Of a stretch of DNA of 64,000 nucleotides, positions 397 through 7,612 are shown piece by piece. The DNA is from Candidatus Avelusimicrobium luingense. Lineage in GTDB: Bacteria; Elusimicrobiota; Elusimicrobia; Elusimicrobiales; Elusimicrobiaceae. The first letter of the stretch is position 1. Every line of letters begins with the position of its first letter. Made by a program: the position numbers and the translations under genes. Under the pieces are notes generated by a model. It searched no databases and was not told the DNA's origin. It worked only from the letters and a program-made list of their open reading frames with translations. Location: contig OOHK01000005.1 in the NCBI GenBank assembly GCA_900315845.1, positions 1-64,000 on the forward strand, read 5' to 3'.

Positions 397-617
397 TTAT
401 TTTACAGCCTTTAGATAGTTTTGTAATACACCTTTGATTCGTGTTTGCATAGACGTGGGGGAAAGCACCTTAATATGCGGTAGCCAATGCAAAATAGTGG
501 GCAAAATTTCTTCCTCTTTTGCCGCTTGGCACGAGATAACAATGCGCCCGTCTTTGAGTTCTTTTTCCAACTTTTGAAGCGGGAAATAGTTCTTTTGCTT
601 AAAGAAATGCGCGCACT
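397..617 (-). pseudogene. Truncated WYL regulator remnant (3' end only)
   Basis: The minus strand encodes the last ~73 residues of a WYL-type regulator, closely matching the C-terminus of the intact WYL gene at 5304-6224: both contain the segments CAHFFKQKNYF, LEKELKDGRI and IKVLSPTS. The frame closes with TAA at 397-399, and an in-frame TAG lies immediately before the first conserved Cys, so no complete protein can be made. The HTH and central domains are absent. Beyond position ~617 the similarity stops abruptly. This is a decayed second copy, left by duplication or recombination at the edge of the island. Confidence 0.8.
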
Positions 618-732
618 AAGTAGTTTTTCATCATAAAAATCCTGTTAGTTTAACGTTGCGTGAATGAATTTGGCGGAAAGCCAAGAGGATTTTGAGGAGC
701 AAGAAAGAGTTTGGAACGGAATATAATATGCT

Positions 733-766
733 GCGACGCTATGTTGTCGCGCGGGTTTATTATCCT
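733..766 (+). promoter_or_regulatory. Promoter with GAC-N8-GTC operator (site 1)
   Basis: Inverted repeat GCGAC (733-737), 8-base spacer GCTATGTT, GTCGC (746-750), then exactly 10 bases and a -10-like TATCCT (761-766). There is no consensus -35; the repeat sits over that position. The same layout occurs at 3852-3888 and, on the minus strand, at 6242-6275. It precedes the zinc-ribbon/DUF2779 operon by 34 bases. Confidence 0.6.
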
Positions 767-799
767 ATAAAGGTAGTTAAAACCAACTAGGAGAAAAAT

Positions 800-913
800 A
801 TGCCAGAAACAAAATACGAATGCAATAAATGTCACCAAGTATTTACCTTCGCAAACCCGACTTTGAATACCAAATGTCCGGTTTGTGGCGGTTTTTTAAG
901 CCGCAAATACTAA
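800..913 (+). CDS. 37-residue zinc-ribbon peptide
   Basis: Short ORF with a good Shine-Dalgarno (AGGAG at 789) seven bases before the ATG. The product has two CxxC knuckles, CNKC near residue 8 and CPVC near residue 26, with CGGF after the second one: a rubredoxin-like or zinc-ribbon fold. It is the first gene of the operon that goes on to the 102-aa protein, the DUF2779 nuclease and the HTH-TPR regulator. Such mini zinc ribbons resemble FmdB-type regulatory proteins but are shorter; the exact job is unknown. A GC-rich inverted repeat (923-946) lies between it and the next gene. Confidence 0.7.
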   Translation: MPETKYECNKCHQVFTFANPTLNTKCPVCGGFLSRKY

Positions 914-961
914 GTGTGGAAAATGCCCCGGTCATCACGGTGGCCGGGGCTAGGAGATAAT

Positions 962-1270
962 ATGAAATTTGAATCAATTAAAGGCAATATGAAGCGTTTT
1001 AACGATCTTATCAACGCTTGTGGCGGTACACAGGGGATGATTGATAAAGGTATCCCTTGGGAACAGGTGGTGTGGGGTAGAACATTTAGTGATAACGGAA
1101 AAGATATTTATTTTGAAATTTACTCCAAAACGGATGAAAAGGGCGAATTGCACTTGTTTGCCAAAAATGGCGAAAAACTACTAGAGCGTGCCAAACGGGA
1201 TTTGGCGTACTCGTGCGATTTGTACGACAAAGACGGCAAACTCCTTAACATTATGTTTTTGGGTCTTTGA
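962..1270 (+). CDS. Hypothetical 102-aa protein in nuclease operon
   Basis: The start at 962 is chosen because TAGGAG lies seven bases upstream; a longer frame from 914 has no ribosome site and runs through the inverted repeat. The product is small, soluble and charged, begins MKFESIKGNMKRFNDLI, and has no signal peptide or membrane segment. Residues 30-70 look like a mixed alpha/beta fold rich in Glu and Lys. I do not recognise the family. It lies 28 bases before the DUF2779 gene and is probably co-transcribed with it. Confidence 0.7.
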   Translation: MKFESIKGNMKRFNDLINACGGTQGMIDKGIPWEQVVWGRTFSDNGKDIYFEIYSKTDEKGELHLFAKNGEKLLERAKRDLAYSCDLYDKDGKLLNIMFLGL

Positions 1271-1298
1271 TGTGCTATTATAACTTTAAGAGGTGCGT

Positions 1299-2765
1299 AT
1301 GAATTTATCCAAATCACAATACACCAAATACCGCGGTTGCCCCAAGCATTTGTGGCTGTACCGTAATAAAAAAGAGGTGCTGACTCCTCCGGATGCTGCC
1401 CAGCAAAAAATCTTTGACAGAGGGCATTTTATCGGAGAGCTTGCTTGGAAGCGTTTCCCGGGTGGAGTGCTAATCAAAGACGGCTACAAAAAACCGCAAG
1501 AAGCCATTAAACGCACGCAGGAACTGATGGCGCAAGGAGTGCCGGCTATCTACGAGGCCGCCTTCTCTTATAACGGTATTTTGGTGTTTGTGGATATTTT
1601 GGAAAAAACGCCCACCGGATGGAATTTGGTGGAAGTCAAAAGCAGCGGGCGCAAAATTGATGCTATTTACGTGGACGATATTTCCATTCAGCGCTATGTG
1701 CTGAGTCATTGCGGGATTACGCCGGAGCACTGTTACCTCATGCACATCAATTCCGACTATTTTATGACGACCGACGAGCCGGATTTGAGCCAATTTTTCC
1801 TCTTAACGCCCATGGATAGCGAACTCTTTTCAGATGAGGATATTGAGGAAAATTTAGCCGCCATTGAAAAATTGCTTGCCGAGCCGGAACCAAAAGTAGA
1901 ACTGGATAAATCCGGTTGTGATGGTTGTGAGTGCCACGACTATTGCTGGAAAGATATGCCCGAGGACTCCGTATTTGACCTTTTGCGTAGCAACCGGGCG
2001 CGGGAGTATATGGCGCAAGGTATATTGCGCATAGCCGATTTGCCGCCGAATAGTTTTGATAACGATAAATACAACCGTTGGATAGAAGTGTGCCGCACGC
2101 AACAACCGTACATTGATAAATCGGCGGTGGCCGCGTGGCTAAATAAGCTAAACTATCCGCTTTATTATCTGGATTTTGAGACGACGCAACCCGTTGTGCC
2201 GCTTTGGAAATACTCGCGGCCGTATCAGCAAATCCCGTTTCAGTTTTCCTTGCATGTCCAACGCGAGCCGAACGGCAAATTTGAACATTACGAGTACCTT
2301 TCCACCGGTAAAGAGGACCCGCGCTATGGGTGTGTAAAGGCACTTTTGGAATATATCGGCAAGGCGGGCACGATTATTGCCCATAATGCCGCGTTTGAAA
2401 AGAGCCGCATTAAAGAGATGGCCCACGACTTGCCCCTGCCCGAAAAAGATGCCAAACGCTTGCAAGAGATGACCGAGCGGTTTGCCGATACGGGGGATGT
2501 GTTTAAGCAGGATTATTTGCATCCCAAAATGCACGCCAGTTGGTCTATTAAGAAAGTACTGCCCGCTCTTGTGCCGGAAATGAGTTACGAAGGCATGGCG
2601 GTTGCCAACGGTGGGGATGCCATGGATGCTTTTGACGTGTTATATGCCGGGAAATTGCCGCCCGCCGAGTTGGAGCAGTTGCGTAAGGATTTACTCAAAT
2701 ATTGCGAGCAAGATACCTGGGCCATGGTCAAAATCGTGGATGTGTTAAGGGATAGCATACAATAG
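1299..2765 (+). CDS. DUF2779 protein: Fe-S RecB/Cas4-like nuclease fused to DEDD exonuclease
   Basis: 488 residues from the ATG at 1299, which has AAGAGG just upstream. The N-terminal half has a Cas4/AddB-type arrangement: an early Cys (RGCPKHLW), the PD-(D/E)XK core motif LVEVKSS near residue 110, and a later cysteine cluster CDGCECHDYC near 205-215, together fitting a 4Fe-4S cluster. The C-terminal half has the three motifs of an RNase H-like DEDD exonuclease: YLDFET near 290, HNAAFE near 360 and YCEQDTW near 470. This order matches the DUF2779 family as I know it. It probably degrades DNA from ends; a role in repair or phage defence is inferred from context. The operon also encodes an HTH regulator. 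Confidence 0.85.
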   Translation: MNLSKSQYTKYRGCPKHLWLYRNKKEVLTPPDAAQQKIFDRGHFIGELAWKRFPGGVLIKDGYKKPQEAIKRTQELMAQGVPAIYEAAFSYNGILVFVDILEKTPTGWNLVEVKSSGRKIDAIYVDDISIQRYVLSHCGITPEHCYLMHINSDYFMTTDEPDLSQFFLLTPMDSELFSDEDIEENLAAIEKLLAEPEPKVELDKSGCDGCECHDYCWKDMPEDSVFDLLRSNRAREYMAQGILRIADLPPNSFDNDKYNRWIEVCRTQQPYIDKSAVAAWLNKLNYPLYYLDFETTQPVVPLWKYSRPYQQIPFQFSLHVQREPNGKFEHYEYLSTGKEDPRYGCVKALLEYIGKAGTIIAHNAAFEKSRIKEMAHDLPLPEKDAKRLQEMTERFADTGDVFKQDYLHPKMHASWSIKKVLPALVPEMSYEGMAVANGGDAMDAFDVLYAGKLPPAELEQLRKDLLKYCEQDTWAMVKIVDVLRDSIQ

Positions 2766-2773
2766 GAGAATTT

Positions 2774-3826
2774 ATGAAAACAAATCAAGACTTTACTAAA
2801 TTGCCTAAAAAAGCAACCAAACGCAAAAATGAGGATATGAAAAAGGGGCTCTCCCGCTTAATTAAGCTGATGATTGACTTAAATCAGGGCGTGCTAAATT
2901 TGGACCACGCCGCTAAGGAATGTGGGGTAAGCCGCCGCACGATTCAGCGCGATATAGAAACCCTAGAGCAGGCCGGGCTAACGCTATATAAGCCCAATCC
3001 GCAAAATGTAAATTACCGCGTGCGGGATGATTTTGAGTGGGCTAAATTTAATATCACTAAAGAAAATGCGCTGGATTTTGTGGATGCACTAGATGCGCTT
3101 ACCGGAGGACTAGGCAAACCCAGTAAATGGGTGCTCCCTATTCAAAAAGAAGTGGAAAAAGCCGGGCGCAAGGAGCAGAAAAAACGTAAAGAAGCCGCGG
3201 GAAAGTGGGAGCCGATGAACGCTACCAAGGAAAACGTCTTATCTATCTTTTTAGATGACGGGAGTTTAAATCGTGCCCCTTTGCAAATTTTACTGGCACT
3301 TGCAGAATTTAATAAGGTTGCTGATGATAAAGGTTTTAGGAATAGTGCCTATCGCAAGTGGCAAGAGCGTGAACTTCAAAAAATTATGATTCGTTTCCAT
3401 TGGTTGGGGCAACAACACCGCGAGGCCTTAAAAGAGTGTGCCAAACTTATTAAGGATGACCCGAAGGATGTATGGCCTTATAAACAAGCCGCTCTGATTT
3501 GCTATACCCAAAAAGATTATAAAGGCGCGCTACAATACGTGCTGGACGGGTTTAAGCAAGACAAACATGATGATACGCTTTTTACGTACTGTCTTTATTT
3601 CGCAATACTAAATAAGCAGTACGAAAGTGCCGCCCGGCTGTTTAACGCGGGTATTAACCACAAGGGGATGCAAACACATTTTGCCGCGCTGATGTACGCA
3701 AGTGCGGGGCAATTTGATAAGGCGTTAGATGTGGTGAGCAAGGCCCAAAAAGCCGACCCCGAGAATCCCAAAGCCTACGAATATATCAAAGGGCAAGTAT
3801 TAGACCTTAAGACTAAGAAACAGTAG
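2774..3826 (+). CDS. HTH (DeoR/WYL-type N-terminus) regulator with TPR C-terminus
   Basis: 350 residues, Shine-Dalgarno AGGAG, eight bases after the nuclease gene. Residues ~25-80 form a winged helix with the recognition segment CGVSRRTIQRDIETLEQAG, very like the N-terminus of the WYL regulator at 5304-6224. Instead of a WYL domain, residues ~190-345 look like tetratricopeptide repeats (for example ALKECAKLIKDDPKDVWPY and ALQYVLDGFKQDKHDDTLF). It may sense a protein partner through the TPRs and act on the GAC-N8-GTC sites; that is inference. An alternative reading is a repressor of its own operon. The Lys-rich first 20 residues may be a tail or a misplaced start (second ATG at ~2837). Confidence 0.75.
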   Translation: MKTNQDFTKLPKKATKRKNEDMKKGLSRLIKLMIDLNQGVLNLDHAAKECGVSRRTIQRDIETLEQAGLTLYKPNPQNVNYRVRDDFEWAKFNITKENALDFVDALDALTGGLGKPSKWVLPIQKEVEKAGRKEQKKRKEAAGKWEPMNATKENVLSIFLDDGSLNRAPLQILLALAEFNKVADDKGFRNSAYRKWQERELQKIMIRFHWLGQQHREALKECAKLIKDDPKDVWPYKQAALICYTQKDYKGALQYVLDGFKQDKHDDTLFTYCLYFAILNKQYESAARLFNAGINHKGMQTHFAALMYASAGQFDKALDVVSKAQKADPENPKAYEYIKGQVLDLKTKKQ

Positions 3827-3851
3827 AAACCGCTATGACGGACATACAAAA

Positions 3852-3888
3852 CGGGTGACACTATGTCGTCACCCGCTTTTGTTATCCT
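3852..3888 (+). promoter_or_regulatory. Promoter with GAC-N8-GTC operator (site 2)
   Basis: Perfect 8-bp inverted repeat CGGGTGAC / GTCACCCG with an 8-base spacer (ACTATGTC), then 10 bases and TATCCT (3883-3888). Layout is identical to site 1 at 733-766, including the shared CTATGT in the spacer. It lies 27 bases before the 24-residue peptide ORF. The hairpin could also help end the preceding operon, but it lacks a clean T-run. Confidence 0.6.
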
Positions 3889-3915
3889 AGATACAAGAAG
3901 TATTTAGGGGAAAAT

Positions 3916-3990
3916 ATGGAGATACTTTTAATGATTATTGTAGATATTATCGGCTTTGCGTTAGACGGAGCCACCGAGCGCAAAAATTAG
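3916..3990 (+). CDS. 24-residue hydrophobic peptide
   Basis: Short ORF with an AGGGG ribosome site at 3906. The peptide has one hydrophobic stretch (residues 3-16, ILLMIIVDIIGFAL) and a charged C-terminal tail (DGATERKN). It is followed by a second tiny membrane ORF with the same kind of ribosome site, both behind operator site 2. Such peptides can be toxins, small regulators of membrane proteins or leader peptides; nothing here decides between these. Confidence 0.45.
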   Translation: MEILLMIIVDIIGFALDGATERKN

Positions 3991-4024
3991 CGCATGATTG
4001 CTATACCGAACATAGGGGGAAAAT

Positions 4025-4102
4025 ATGAGTATACTGGGTTTTATCGTATTAGGGGTTTTGATGTTTATTTTTTTTATAGCTCTAGCCCAAATTGATTTTT
4101 AG
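4025..4102 (+). CDS. 25-residue membrane peptide
   Basis: Second tiny ORF, with a strong AGGGGGA ribosome site at 4014 and a stop at 4100. Nearly the whole peptide is one membrane helix (MSILGFIVLGVLMFIFFIAL) ending AQIDF. It follows the 24-residue peptide by 34 bases and shares its promoter. Both the good ribosome site and the pairing of two such ORFs argue that it is translated; the function is unknown. Confidence 0.45.
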   Translation: MSILGFIVLGVLMFIFFIALAQIDF

Positions 4103-4112
4103 GGGTAAAATA

Positions 4113-4139
4113 CCGGGCGGCAAGAAAATTGCCGCCCGG
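4113..4139. terminator. Hairpin between convergent genes
   Basis: 11-bp perfect stem CCGGGCGGCAA / TTGCCGCCCGG with loop GAAAA, between the plus-strand peptide genes and the minus-strand nuclease. T-runs are poor on both sides, so terminator strength is uncertain. Confidence 0.55.
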
Positions 4140-4153
4140 GATTAAGACATATT

Positions 4154-5044
4154 TCACACGCCTCTTTTGTTCTTTGCACTTGTGATAAGTTTTAGGATTT
4201 CCTCTTTGCTTTCATTAAAAGATTTGATAGTAGAAAAAGCAATTTGATAGTACTGTCTATATTTGCGTTCTATATCAATATGTTTGCTAGATAGAAGCTC
4301 TTCAATTTCATTATTTTCGTCGCAGTGAATACGTAATTGAACATTTCCTTTTTGCGGCACAAAAGAAATGAAATTCTTTGCAATACCATCTTTTTTTAGT
4401 CCAATATAAAATTTGTTATAGTTTAATTCAAATTCTTGACATAATGGGTTAATTTCCTTGAATATATTATCCATTAAAGTCATCATGGTAGAATTGGATC
4501 GTTGTTCCCACCACGCTCTGTTTGTAACTAATTCTTGTTCTGTATCATCATCTGCAGAACTGACGGTCAAGTCTAGTATGTTGGTAAGGTTTAACCCAAC
4601 TTTGTTGTCAGGTAGAGGAATAGCAGTTAATTGTAGGGCTATCAAGGGAATCGCCCCGTGAAACAGTGAAATTACATTAAAGAAGCGTCCAGTAATATTT
4701 TCGGCTATCAGCACGGCAATATGATCATATTTGGGATAACGTTTTCTTTCTATGTCCCAGTATTCTATGGACCGAATAATATGTGTTTCATCGGTTGCTC
4801 CCAATTGTAACTCAACTTCATATCTATTATTTTCGTCATCACCAAATAATAAGTCAATTCTTCCGCCACTAAATTGTCTTTTTTCCCTTTGTAAGGGTTG
4901 CAGGTTTTTGACTCCAATCGCATCTCCTAATATTTCAGGATGGTCGTAGAGAAAATCGCGTATATTGGCTTCTGTAATTGTTTTTTCTTCAGTTAAATTC
5001 AACTGTGTCATGGGTGTCAATTTATTGTTTGTGTTGTTACTCAT
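4154..5044 (-). CDS. NucS/DUF91-like PD-(D/E)XK nuclease
   Basis: 296 residues with a clear AAAGGAGA ribosome site. After ~25 polar residues comes an N-terminal helical region (ANIRDFLYDHPEIL), then GRIDLLF near residue 62 and YEVELQLG near 75, the spacing of the catalytic D...ExQ of a PD-(D/E)XK fold, as in endonuclease NucS and DUF91 proteins. Residues ~85-105 (THIIRSIEYWDIERKRYP) fit the conserved helix after the active site. The C-terminal half (180-296) is unassigned. It has its own strong promoter and no GAC-N8-GTC site. Likely a DNA-end or mismatch nuclease, or a restriction-type defence protein. Confidence 0.65.
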   Translation of the reverse strand: MSNNTNNKLTPMTQLNLTEEKTITEANIRDFLYDHPEILGDAIGVKNLQPLQREKRQFSGGRIDLLFGDDENNRYEVELQLGATDETHIIRSIEYWDIERKRYPKYDHIAVLIAENITGRFFNVISLFHGAIPLIALQLTAIPLPDNKVGLNLTNILDLTVSSADDDTEQELVTNRAWWEQRSNSTMMTLMDNIFKEINPLCQEFELNYNKFYIGLKKDGIAKNFISFVPQKGNVQLRIHCDENNEIEELLSSKHIDIERKYRQYYQIAFSTIKSFNESKEEILKLITSAKNKRGV

Positions 5045-5076
5045 ATTCTTTCTCCTTTAATTTCCAATCTATTTTA

Positions 5077-5105
5077 ATTATATTTGTTGTAATTGGGTGC
5101 GTCAA
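5077..5105 (-). promoter_or_regulatory. Sigma-70-type promoter for the NucS-like gene
   Basis: On the minus strand TTGACG (5105-5100), 17-base spacer, TATAAT (5082-5077). A near-consensus promoter 33 bases before the start codon. Confidence 0.75.
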
Positions 5106-5109
5106 GCCG

Positions 5110-5307
5110 TCATTTCCTCATACAAAACATACTGTGGCTAGTACCTTCTACAAAGCATTCCGTGTCGCCTAAATCGTAGCGGGTGATGTTCGCGCCGGCG
5201 TATTGGGTAATCGTTTTTACTTGTTCCATTTTGATTTGGATTTGAGCTGCGCCGTATCCAACCCCGGTGGCTAATAATAGAGCCAAAATTAAGTAAATTT
5301 TCTTCAT
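5110..5307 (-). CDS. Small secreted protein, 65 aa
   Basis: N-terminal signal peptide (MKKIYLILALLLATGVGYGAA) with likely cleavage near residue 21, leaving a ~45-residue mature peptide with two Cys (TECFVEG and MFCMRK) that could form one disulfide. Its ATG overlaps the WYL gene stop (ATGA) and its ribosome site AAGGAG lies inside the WYL 3' end, so translation is probably coupled. Family not recognised. Pairing a regulator with a small exported peptide is suggestive of signalling, but that is speculation. Confidence 0.6.
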   Translation of the reverse strand: MKKIYLILALLLATGVGYGAAQIQIKMEQVKTITQYAGANITRYDLGDTECFVEGTSHSMFCMRK

Positions 5308-6224
5308 TTTACACTCCTTAAATAATTGTTTAACACATCTTTTACACGCTTACGTAAAGACGTGGGAGAAAGCACCTTAATATGCGGTAACCAATGCAAA
5401 ATGGTTGGCAAAATTTCTTCCTCTTTGGCGGCTTTGCATGAGAGAACTATGCGCCCGTCTTTGAGTTCTTTTTCCAACTTTTGCAGCGGAAAATAGTTCT
5501 TTTGCTTAAAGAAATGCGCGCACTCGGCCGATACTTCCATTTTTACATGAAGCGGGCGGTCTTGCTCAAACCAAATGTTTGTGCTGTTTCGCAAAATATC
5601 GTCTATATTTTTATCGTATTTGAATGGTTTATTTGTGGCTTTGGCCGAAGATATTTTTTCCAAACGGAATTTTAATAATTTATCGGTATTAGTCAGTGAT
5701 AGTAAATACCAAAAGCCTTCCATCCACATGAGTTTTAGCGGTCGTACTTCATAACAGGCTAATTTGCCGCCCCTATAACATACATTTACCCACTTTCGCT
5801 CTCGTATGCATTCTTCCAGCGTTTTTGTGATAGGCGTATCTATATAGATTTCGCCATTATTTAGTTTGATAAAAAAAGGATTGTCTTGCGGCATGGCTAA
5901 CAGACGGTTTTTGAGTATAGAAAACGTACGACCGAAATTTCCACCTAGCGACGAAGCCATCTCGTTCATTACTACTAAAAGCGAGGCTTCGGCTCCGGAT
6001 AGTTTCATTCGTTGTAACGAGCAACCCGCTATAAATGCATAATCGCCGGGTTTTGGATTCCATAAGGGGAAATCCGCACTTTGTATTTCGTTCATATCGC
6101 GTTGAATGGTGCGTACATTTACACCCACTTCAGCCGCCATTTTAGCCAAATTGATGGGCCCTTTATCAAGGGAGTTAAGTTCATATAAAAGCCGGGTTAA
6201 TTTATTTTGCATTTCTTTTTGCAT
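5304..6224 (-). CDS. WYL-domain transcriptional regulator
   Basis: 306 residues, start with AGAGG upstream. Residues 1-55 are a winged helix (AEVGVNVRTIQRDMNEIQ); residues ~135-210 match a WYL domain, including the ligand-site segment KWVNVCYRGGK and the RPLKLMWMEGFWYLLS strand pair; the C-terminal WCX-like region ends the protein. WYL regulators bind nucleotides or DNA ends and control defence and DNA-damage genes. Its promoter holds a GAC-N8-GTC site, so it probably regulates itself and perhaps the two plus-strand units with the same site. A truncated copy of its 3' end is at 397-617. Confidence 0.88.
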   Translation of the reverse strand: MQKEMQNKLTRLLYELNSLDKGPINLAKMAAEVGVNVRTIQRDMNEIQSADFPLWNPKPGDYAFIAGCSLQRMKLSGAEASLLVVMNEMASSLGGNFGRTFSILKNRLLAMPQDNPFFIKLNNGEIYIDTPITKTLEECIRERKWVNVCYRGGKLACYEVRPLKLMWMEGFWYLLSLTNTDKLLKFRLEKISSAKATNKPFKYDKNIDDILRNSTNIWFEQDRPLHVKMEVSAECAHFFKQKNYFPLQKLEKELKDGRIVLSCKAAKEEEILPTILHWLPHIKVLSPTSLRKRVKDVLNNYLRSVK

Positions 6225-6241
6225 AGTTACCTCTTATTCAA

Positions 6242-6275
6242 AGTATAGCACATCTGCGCGACAAGGGGGTGTCGT
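6242..6275 (-). promoter_or_regulatory. Promoter with GAC-N8-GTC operator (site 3)
   Basis: Minus strand: ACGAC (6275-6271), 8-base spacer ACCCCCTT, GTCGC (6262-6258), 10 bases, TATACT (6247-6242). The -10 box is 17 bases before the WYL start codon. Same spacing as sites 1 and 2. Confidence 0.6.
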
Positions 6276-6394: not shown

Positions 6395-7612
6395 ATGGAT
6401 GTGATTTCTTTGTTAAAAGAGTTTGAAACACTGGTGCAAATGCGGCAACGTAAATTGGGAAATTTCGGAGCCAACCCCAACCGGTTTAATTTATTCAAAG
6501 TTGTGTCCGATAAATATAGAAAAGAAAATTTACATAGTGATATTTTAGCCTATTTATTGGATAACGAGCCAAGTTTCTTGAATTTGTTTTTGGAACAGGC
6601 AGATAAGTTAGGATGTATGGATAAAAGTGGGGGTGTTCTATTAAAAGAGACATTTGATACTCATGCTAATGTATTTGTCCGTCGCGAAAAAGGCCGTATA
6701 GATATTTTGATACATAACGATAAACAGCAAGCCATTATCATAGAAAATAAATTAAACGGATTTACGGATATGGATACGCAACTGTGTCGCTATTACCAGT
6801 ATGCTGTTGAACATAACTGGAAAGTCCTTGCCATTCTTTATTTGCCGCGTGAAAAAGGCAAAGTGCCTAATATCGGCAAGTATTCGTGCGAAATATGTAA
6901 AGACAGAAAACAATGTGCCGGTTATAAAAAATTCTCCTTTGAAACGCAATTGCCTAAATTAACAAAAGTAATAGAGATAGAGCCGTTGATAGATGTATTA
7001 ACCCAATGGGTAGCAAATTCCGAGCCGGATGATGTAAGATTGTCCGATATGCAAATGTTTGTACGGCATTATGCCGATTTACTCAGAGAAATAGGAGTTA
7101 ATTGTATGACATACGACGAAAATATAGACATTCTAAAGAAAATTTTTGAAGATAAAACCTTACTGGACACGGCCAATGTGCTTGCTTTTATTTGGCAAAA
7201 TAAACAAGAGTTGCTTAAACCACTGGTGGGGAAACGTATTGCGGAAGAATTGCAAGCAAAAGGTTATAAACAAAAAGATAAAGATCCTATTTGGAAGGAA
7301 GCCGGAGGAGTCTTATATAAAGAATTGCCCGGTAATCCTTATTTTGAGTACATTATCTATAAGCCGGAGTGGCTTACATTTGCCTTAAAACCCAAGGACG
7401 GGCAAGTGGAAAAAGCCAATTACCTATTGGCAAACGAAGCCTTTGAAAAGTGTGATTACTTGTCCGAGGTGCGTGGTTCAACGGCCAATTTTAAGCACCG
7501 AAATTTTGATTTCAAAAAACTGCCCCAACCATTAGAAACCTTACATGAAATAGTGGCAAAATGTGTGGCCTGTTATGATAAATTAGAAGAACTGGTCACG
7601 CAAGAAAAATAA
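6395..7612 (+). CDS. PD-(D/E)XK nuclease family protein (PDDEXK_4-like)
   Basis: 405 residues; TGGAG lies ten bases before the ATG. Residues ~35-55 (KENLHSDILAYLLD) and the core GRIDILI (near 103) with IIIENKLNG (near 118) give the D...ExK triad of this nuclease family, followed by QLCRYYQYA. A CEICKDRKQC cluster near 170 may bind metal. The C-terminal half (230-405) is less clear. Proteins with this architecture are common in defence islands and phage-related loci. It is transcribed away from the WYL gene with a 170-base gap that contains operator site 3 and a TATAAT at about 6354. Confidence 0.75.
   Translation: MDVISLLKEFETLVQMRQRKLGNFGANPNRFNLFKVVSDKYRKENLHSDILAYLLDNEPSFLNLFLEQADKLGCMDKSGGVLLKETFDTHANVFVRREKGRIDILIHNDKQQAIIIENKLNGFTDMDTQLCRYYQYAVEHNWKVLAILYLPREKGKVPNIGKYSCEICKDRKQCAGYKKFSFETQLPKLTKVIEIEPLIDVLTQWVANSEPDDVRLSDMQMFVRHYADLLREIGVNCMTYDENIDILKKIFEDKTLLDTANVLAFIWQNKQELLKPLVGKRIAEELQAKGYKQKDKDPIWKEAGGVLYKELPGNPYFEYIIYKPEWLTFALKPKDGQVEKANYLLANEAFEKCDYLSEVRGSTANFKHRNFDFKKLPQPLETLHEIVAKCVACYDKLEELVTQEK

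Follow-up and report, generated by a model that had tools for sequence, protein, structure and literature searches.

A GAC-N8-GTC palindrome set at a fixed distance from the -10 box probably marks a WYL-controlled DNA-damage regulon in Elusimicrobiales

The first 64,000 nucleotides of contig OOHK01000005.1 of Candidatus Avelusimicrobium luingense (Elusimicrobiales, Elusimicrobiaceae; assembly GCA_900315845.1), referred to as the window, contain an island of genes in which three promoters carry almost the same inverted repeat, which raises the question of which protein reads this repeat and what it switches. An earlier note on this DNA had proposed that the three repeats of the form RYGAC-N8-GTCRY are operators of a WYL regulon, each covering the -35 region and keeping the same distance to the -10 box, with a link to DNA damage and defence, and the comparative evidence collected here agrees with this proposal. 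We give a probability of roughly 80% to the reading that all three repeats serve a DNA-damage regulon as operators, in which a WYL activator resembling DriD of Caulobacter crescentus would span the -35 region of promoters inducible by damage. In more general terms, it is very probable that a WYL-type regulator uses the motif as a switch to turn on repair and defence genes; hence, a damage response like those of Caulobacter and mycobacteria, instead of or beside LexA, seems to be present.

The repeats themselves are as the note described them. The pattern RYGACN8GTCRY occurs exactly three times in the window (mean of shuffled sequences 0.42), the pattern GACN8GTCN12TANNNT likewise three times (shuffled mean 0.16), none of 100 shuffles reached three in either case, and at all three sites exactly 10 bases separate GTCRY from TATCCT, TATCCT or TATACT. 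In the own genome of 1.46 Mb, 14 matches of GACN8GTCN12TANNNT stand against 6 for the reversed control, and the stricter pattern GACN8GTCGYN10TATNNT gave 7 matches against 0. A search with the half-site only, TTGTCG-N{0,25}-TATNNT, showed no overall excess in this genome (90 matches against 95 for the reversed pattern), hence it is the complete palindrome with its fixed spacing that stands out. Across 81 related genomes, the own one included, the strict pattern found 206 sites against 38 for the reversed control: the window's genus, represented by 49 genomes, contributed 70 of these sites (control 12), and the sister family f2, represented by 32, the other 136 (control 26). The sites are distributed unevenly, with 18 in G051, 16 in G067, 14 in G053 and 13 in G078, and none in many genomes. 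In a phylum-wide draw a match was found in 68 of 198 genomes, and outside the order the numbers were mostly 0-3 per genome and near the control. Judged from sequence, the motif is a promoter class of the entire order.

The spacing is rigid. When the gap before TATNNT was left free between 0 and 25 in 15 genomes, a gap of 11 was found in 82 of the 150 matches listed (225 in total), while the other 25 gaps had, among the matches listed, a mean of 2.7 and a maximum of 10. Palindromes before recA that had been located without regard to a -10 box showed TANNNT at exactly N12 in 23 of 23 cases. A chance origin of the motif was considered and is excluded by the excess over shuffled sequences, the excess over the control in relatives and this rigid spacing.

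Numbered from the -10 box, GAC occupies -38 to -36 and GTC -27 to -25, so that the -35 position falls within the N8 spacer. It had been noted that none of the three promoters has a proper -35 element and that the repeat takes its place, which also applies to a collection of 238 distinct sites, for the most part retrieved with the motif itself: their best match to TTGACA at a spacer of 16-18 averaged 2.03 of 6 positions compared to 2.49 in letter-shuffled sites. In the same collection C at -39 was found in 91%, T at -15 in 77%, G at -14 in 52% and a purine at +1 in 84% of the sites. The predicted promoter type is one with a -10 box, often extended, and without a -35 element. Sets that were not selected for these bases show a preference for A at -32 and G at -30, with frequencies of 0.56 and 0.71 in family f1 (85 sites) and with A in 15 and G in 19 of the 23 recA sites; the repeat may preserve part of a -35 element, as though contact of its centre with sigma region 4 persisted. 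From the scan of 84,980 genomes reported below, the spacer asymmetry (A at -32, Y at -31, G at -30) is not claimed, because the search pattern fixes those bases.

Regarding the protein that reads the motif, the closest parallel is DriD, an activator of damage genes independent of the SOS response (see also PMC8223512, PMC7739468). A family profile of 46 sequences of the WYL regulator encoded in the island matches DriD (8tp8) with an E value of 5.8e-16 over positions 5-302 of 308, thus almost end to end over the shared architecture of winged helix-turn-helix (wHTH), WYL and WCX domains, and it matches also PafBC (6sj9) and PafC (7p5x). The DriD operator is given as ATACGAC(X)7GTCGTAT, which covers the -35, keeps its distance to the -10 constant and is used in both directions, and the two DNA-binding domains are described to sandwich sigma 4 at the operator centre (preprint, PMC12340889). 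The arms of our motif are DriD-like, with C at -39 in 0.85-1.00 of the Elusimicrobia and Omnitrophota sites, but the spacer is N8 instead of N7. Two arginines of the recognition helix, R38 and R42, are invariant across the 46 WYL homologues, and in DriD it is arginines that contact the guanines of GAC/GTC (PMC12340889). A consensus scan of the DriD promoters placed GGC/GTC-N12 before CAAGGT and CAATCT at didA and driD, respectively, whereas the best match at bapE was located elsewhere (7 of 14 positions); the spacing shared with DriD rests therefore on two of three promoters and on a figure legend of the paper (PMC12340889). As in the present system, repair genes and a membrane protein, DidA, are among the DriD targets named there (PMC12340889). 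DidA is a small protein. However, the regulon suggested here would be much larger and takes in recA in the sister family, and the site before the WYL gene points to self-activation, while DriD is reported not to activate its own gene (PMC12340889). The second parallel is the mycobacterial RecA-NDp promoter, tTGTCRgtg-8nt-TannnT (PMC5656591), to which GTC-N12-TANNNT corresponds exactly and which shares with our system recA as target and the WYL domains. PafBC is described as a heterodimer reading a non-palindromic motif (PMC6789036, PMC11804915), also called '-26 motif' (PMC11804915), in contrast to the palindrome and the single WYL-WCX protein in many of the genomes analysed here. Hence, the statement of the earlier note that the motif had not been described holds for these phyla, in that no published description for Elusimicrobiota or Omnitrophota was found in the open-licence literature, but not for its parts, since half-site and spacing are those of the RecA-NDp promoter and the palindrome differs little from the operator of DriD.

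By analogy to these systems, a WYL-WCX dimer would bind GAC and GTC on both sides of a degenerate -35 and would recruit or stabilise the housekeeping RNA polymerase where a promoter offers a -10 box without a proper -35. Single-stranded DNA (ssDNA) arising from damage or phage attack would bind to the WYL domain and thereby switch the protein on, as in DriD and PafBC, and the activated protein might then raise its own synthesis together with that of repair and defence proteins. We infer in this scheme that the WYL protein of the window binds directly, that it activates rather than represses, and that ssDNA is the signal. The opposite sign, a WYL protein that represses at the sites until damage or phage signals release it, is improbable though the best placed among the alternatives. 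WYL repressors such as BrxR and CapW have been reported to control defence loci (PMC9122589, PMC9122601, PMC9122588), the present regulon includes defence genes with a WYL protein beside them, and a protein over the -35 region could well block RNA polymerase. However, the sites replace a -35 rather than covering a good one, the fixed distance to the -10 would be unnecessary for repression, among structural relatives matched over the full length the closest one, DriD, is an activator, and the BrxR/CapW systems are described as local, in contrast to the genome-wide and repair-centred regulon found here.

The linkage between WYL genes and the motif was analysed starting from the protein. Among 30 WYL loci fetched in this way, 12 of 13 close orthologues have GACN8GTC in the 120 nt before the gene, compared to 1 of 17 more distant ones; with loci fetched by the motif added, it is present within 130 nt in 23 of 47 WYL loci and in 15 of 16 of the close clade. 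The check suggested in the note, whether the motif is commoner before WYL and DUF2779 genes of relatives, thus turned out in its favour (for DUF2779, 5 of 7 loci against 0 of 8 controls, see below). Within the window's genus, 54 sites (control 4) fall to the 13 genomes that have a close WYL orthologue, 9 (control 1) to the 12 genomes with other WCX proteins and 7 (control 7) to the 24 genomes without WCX, and the presence of WCX is associated with the presence of any site (Fisher p 0.0005). A WYL gene lies in 11 of the 81 motif-found stretches (10 distinct, since L229 and L272 cut one gene) and in none of the 30 shorter recA loci. Comparison of genomes shows the motif, its rigid spacing, its genome- and order-wide use, its repair and defence content and its linkage to WYL.

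A predicted target in the sister family is recA. Thirty recA loci were fetched by family, 29 from f2 and one from the window's genus, and 23 of the 29 have a full site just upstream; including G078 (with site) and G077 (without), the site precedes recA in 24 of 31 f2 genomes. It was found in 24 of the 28 genomes in which WCX is present and in none of the three in which it is absent (G057, G065, G077), thus all 24 genomes with a recA site encode a WYL-WCX protein. This association bears on the alternative in which another DNA-binding protein recognises the motif and the WYL gene is simply one of its frequent targets; the rarity of the site before WYL genes of the sister family would speak for it. 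This alternative appears nevertheless very unlikely, because the presence of WYL-WCX tracks the sites in both families (other regulators were not all screened) and because a WYL homologue that has been characterised has a matching operator.

A similarly low probability is given to LexA, that is, to the palindrome being the operator of the group's LexA-type repressor with the WYL gene as just one target among others. Repair genes of the SOS type, recA and ssb among them, carry the site, LexA of other bacteria controls its own gene, and genus g5 has eight genomes in which recA and a LexA-like S24 gene are arranged divergently, the WYL-type site being next to recA (L168, L169, L170, L172, L173, L174, L183, L184). 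However, the LexA DNA-binding domain PF01726, detected in 58 of the 81 genomes, was not matched in 13 of the 24 genomes with a recA site (draft genomes can hide genes), hence LexA does not explain the motif even though both coexist. Conversely, it is present in 45 of the 49 genomes of the window's genus including nearly all without sites, where six lexA regions lack the palindrome. The similarity to the SOS regulon is thus one of gene content; here the operator is fixed to the -10 box at promoters lacking a -35, and LexA is not needed.

The least probable reading is a PafBC-like two-protein activator composed of the WYL protein and its island neighbour HTH-TPR, both having a WYL-type helix-turn-helix (HTH) and the latter a weak HTH_PafC match (E 0.017, below cut-off), because the operator is symmetric and because HTH-TPR is found full-length in only 7 of 81 genomes whereas motif and WYL proteins are widespread. 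Paired PafB/PafC subunits were not encountered: HTH-TPR has neither WYL nor WCX domain, and a single WCX protein is all that is present in 10 of 12 g5-type genomes, as in many others. Close copies of HTH-TPR are limited to one at 93% identity in G048 and copies at 31-36% in five others of the 81 genomes, with 84-89% in two copies of the island, hence it is at most an accessory and not the conserved regulator, and the note's view of two related HTH regulators in the island is doubtful.

Several observations weigh against the interpretation as a WYL-activated damage regulon. The broad pattern yields 14 against 6 matches in the own genome, several of them intragenic; at least three (L006, L013, L014), located within genes or overlapping them, appear to be chance matches. 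A single WYL sequence compared with the PDB found no relative. In the sister family the WYL gene rarely has an operator (0 of 5 loci within 120 nt), hence it is co-occurrence that supports its role in that family. A recA site is missing from four WCX-positive genomes (G050, G054, G069, G072), and in the window's genus 1-2 sites are present in 5 of the 24 genomes without WCX, which are drafts, G035 having a double site that resembles one of the own genome. In the same genus none of seven recA regions has a site, and the six lexA regions mentioned above lack the palindrome. Since 24 of 31 f2 genomes stand against 0 of 7, recA control is a feature of f2 and the regulon is smaller in the window's genus, where it is accessory because recA has no site and LexA is usually present. 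Finally, the gene contents given in the following were tallied without a matched background from sites chosen by the motif, while the tests on recA and DUF2779 started from the genes.

Behind 159 distinct sites, 134 different downstream proteins were chosen. Among the 25 of 100 Pfam families listed, WYL occurs 9 times, Y1 transposase 8, RecA, UvrD helicase, DUF1016, ORF6N and AAA 4 each and DnaB_C 3 times; NCBIfam adds a RecB-like helicase and the anti-phage ATPase IteA with 4 each. Scans of single proteins found SSB, UDG, RadC, Bro-N, UvrD helicase, PDDEXK_1, radical SAM, ERCC4, metallophosphoesterase and RmuC behind sites, where PADLOC recognised type I restriction-modification, DUF1016-type PDC-S02 and IetA; a PNKP-type phosphatase and the DUF2779 nuclease belong also to this group. 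In the own genome, sites lie directly before rmuC (63 nt), an AAA ATPase gene (31 nt; IetA-like in PADLOC) and a TPR gene, and another one 25 nt before a PNKP-type phosphatase gene, with an uncharacterised gene on its opposite side. Twenty strong DUF2779 loci were available, seven from f2 with upstream sequence, twelve from the window's genus and the cut locus L321. A full site stands directly before the DUF2779 frame in five of the seven f2 loci, also in L218, L231 and L289, and in none of eight weak-hit control loci from an unrelated gene family. In the flank examined of the twelve loci of the window's genus it was seen only at the window's own locus, the near flank being without it because other genes stand between; in longer stretches the site heads the DUF2779 operon in the five genomes given for site 1 in Table 1, whereas the operon heads of G034, G043 and G015 have none.

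The genes that the earlier note had placed behind the three sites, namely the DUF2779 operon, two tiny peptides and the WYL gene, recur in the same arrangement in relatives (Table 1).

Table 1. Sites and genes of the island (positions in the window; the core is the match to GACN8GTCN12TANNNT).
Feature	Position	Strand	Description
Site 1	733..766	+	Operator GCGAC-N8-GTCGC 733-750; core 735-766; -10 TATCCT 761-766; heads the Zn-ribbon/102 aa/DUF2779/HTH-TPR operon; also at the equivalent operon in G044, G048, G083, G159, G102
Zn-ribbon peptide, 37 aa	800..913	+	Operon gene 1; weak Zn_ribbon_8 match below cut-off; homologues behind the site in 5 genomes
102 aa open reading frame	962..1270	+	No Pfam match at 0.1; homologues at related operons
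DUF2779 protein	1299..2765	+	Cas4/RecB-like region, probable nuclease; recurrent regulon member
HTH-TPR	2774..3826	+	TPR repeats joined to a WYL-type HTH; lacks WYL and WCX domains; accessory
Site 2	3855..3888	+	Operator GTGAC-N8-GTCAC 3855-3872, 7-bp arms 3853-3859/3868-3874; core 3857-3888; -10 TATCCT 3883-3888; heads two peptides; site and peptides also in G048, G083, G159
Hydrophobic peptide, 24 aa	3916..3990	+	MEILLMIIVDIIGFALDGATERKN; copies 96%, 81% and 67% identical behind the same site
Hydrophobic peptide, 25 aa	4025..4102	+	MSILGFIVLGVLMFIFFIALAQIDF; similar peptides in G048 and G083
65 aa open reading frame	5110..5307	-	Overlaps the WYL gene end; copies 72-92% identical beside WYL gene or site
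WYL regulator	5304..6224	-	HTH_11, WYL and WCX domains; likely DNA-binding activator
Site 3	6242..6275	-	Operator ACGAC-N8-GTCGC 6258-6275; core 6242-6273; -10 TATACT 6242-6247; promoter of WYL gene and 65 aa frame; also in G044, G048, G034, G083, G159, G102

Most knowledge of LexA-independent damage responses comes from PafBC of mycobacteria and DriD of Caulobacter, and a motif that can be read from sequence would predict a damage regulon, recA included, in the little-studied Elusimicrobiota, with sites also in Omnitrophota. Repair and phage-defence genes would be tied to one switch, and the promoter rule GAC-N8-GTC-N12-TANNNT could be used to find such genes in uncultured bacteria. It provides also functional hints for the DUF2779 nucleases and for the tiny hydrophobic peptides. 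The odds are about even for a further-reaching idea, according to which a single WYL protein, binding the palindrome over the -35, is the master activator of recA and an SOS-type gene set throughout a bacterial family, in part of which LexA has been replaced by it, and DriD, PafBC and this WYL protein share an ancient GTC-N12 geometry. If true, WYL-driven damage induction would be an old and general second SOS system.

The scan of 84,980 genomes with the strict pattern returned 81 stretches, while about 7.5 are expected by chance. Fifty of them carry the labels Elusimicrobia, Elusimicrobiales, Elusimicrobiaceae or Elusimicrobium, three are from Endomicrobium/Proruminimicrobium, also Elusimicrobiota, 13 from Omnitrophota and 15 from other taxa. 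C at -39, which the pattern does not fix, is found in 17 of 17 Omnitrophota sites and at a frequency of 0.47 at the sites in the 15 stretches of other taxa, which therefore, and given the number expected overall, may mostly be chance; exceptions are L218 with DUF2779 and L233 and L254 with WYL adjoining the site. Two IMG/VR contigs classed as viral, L299 and L300, have both a WYL gene and a site, L299 with DUF2779 divergent across the site.

A variant GACC(N)...TGTCG was found in G027, G024, G001, G043, G041 and G064, the genomes of which contain a second WYL paralogue (38-45% identity), mostly within a few kb of the variant sites, so a separate specificity is possible. REP-associated tyrosine transposase genes follow the site in L104, L113, L114, L118, L121, L122, L127, L220 and L285 (Y1_Tnp 8 of 134 proteins). 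The own genome has a two-way site at C7:155607/155625 (to 155656; L008, L009, L315), the leftward gene of which is split into frames of 33, 75 and 104 aa and corresponds to a single gene of 226 and 221 aa in G044 and G048, respectively. Just upstream of site 1, the window contains the remnant of a second WYL gene (400-624, minus strand; final 75 residues, 83% identity, one stop), hence the island may have originated by duplication or recombination. Genes for a PDDEXK_4 nuclease (PDC-S26-like; 6395-7612, plus strand) and a PDC-S11-like protein (4154-5044, minus strand) lie beside the island without a site of their own.

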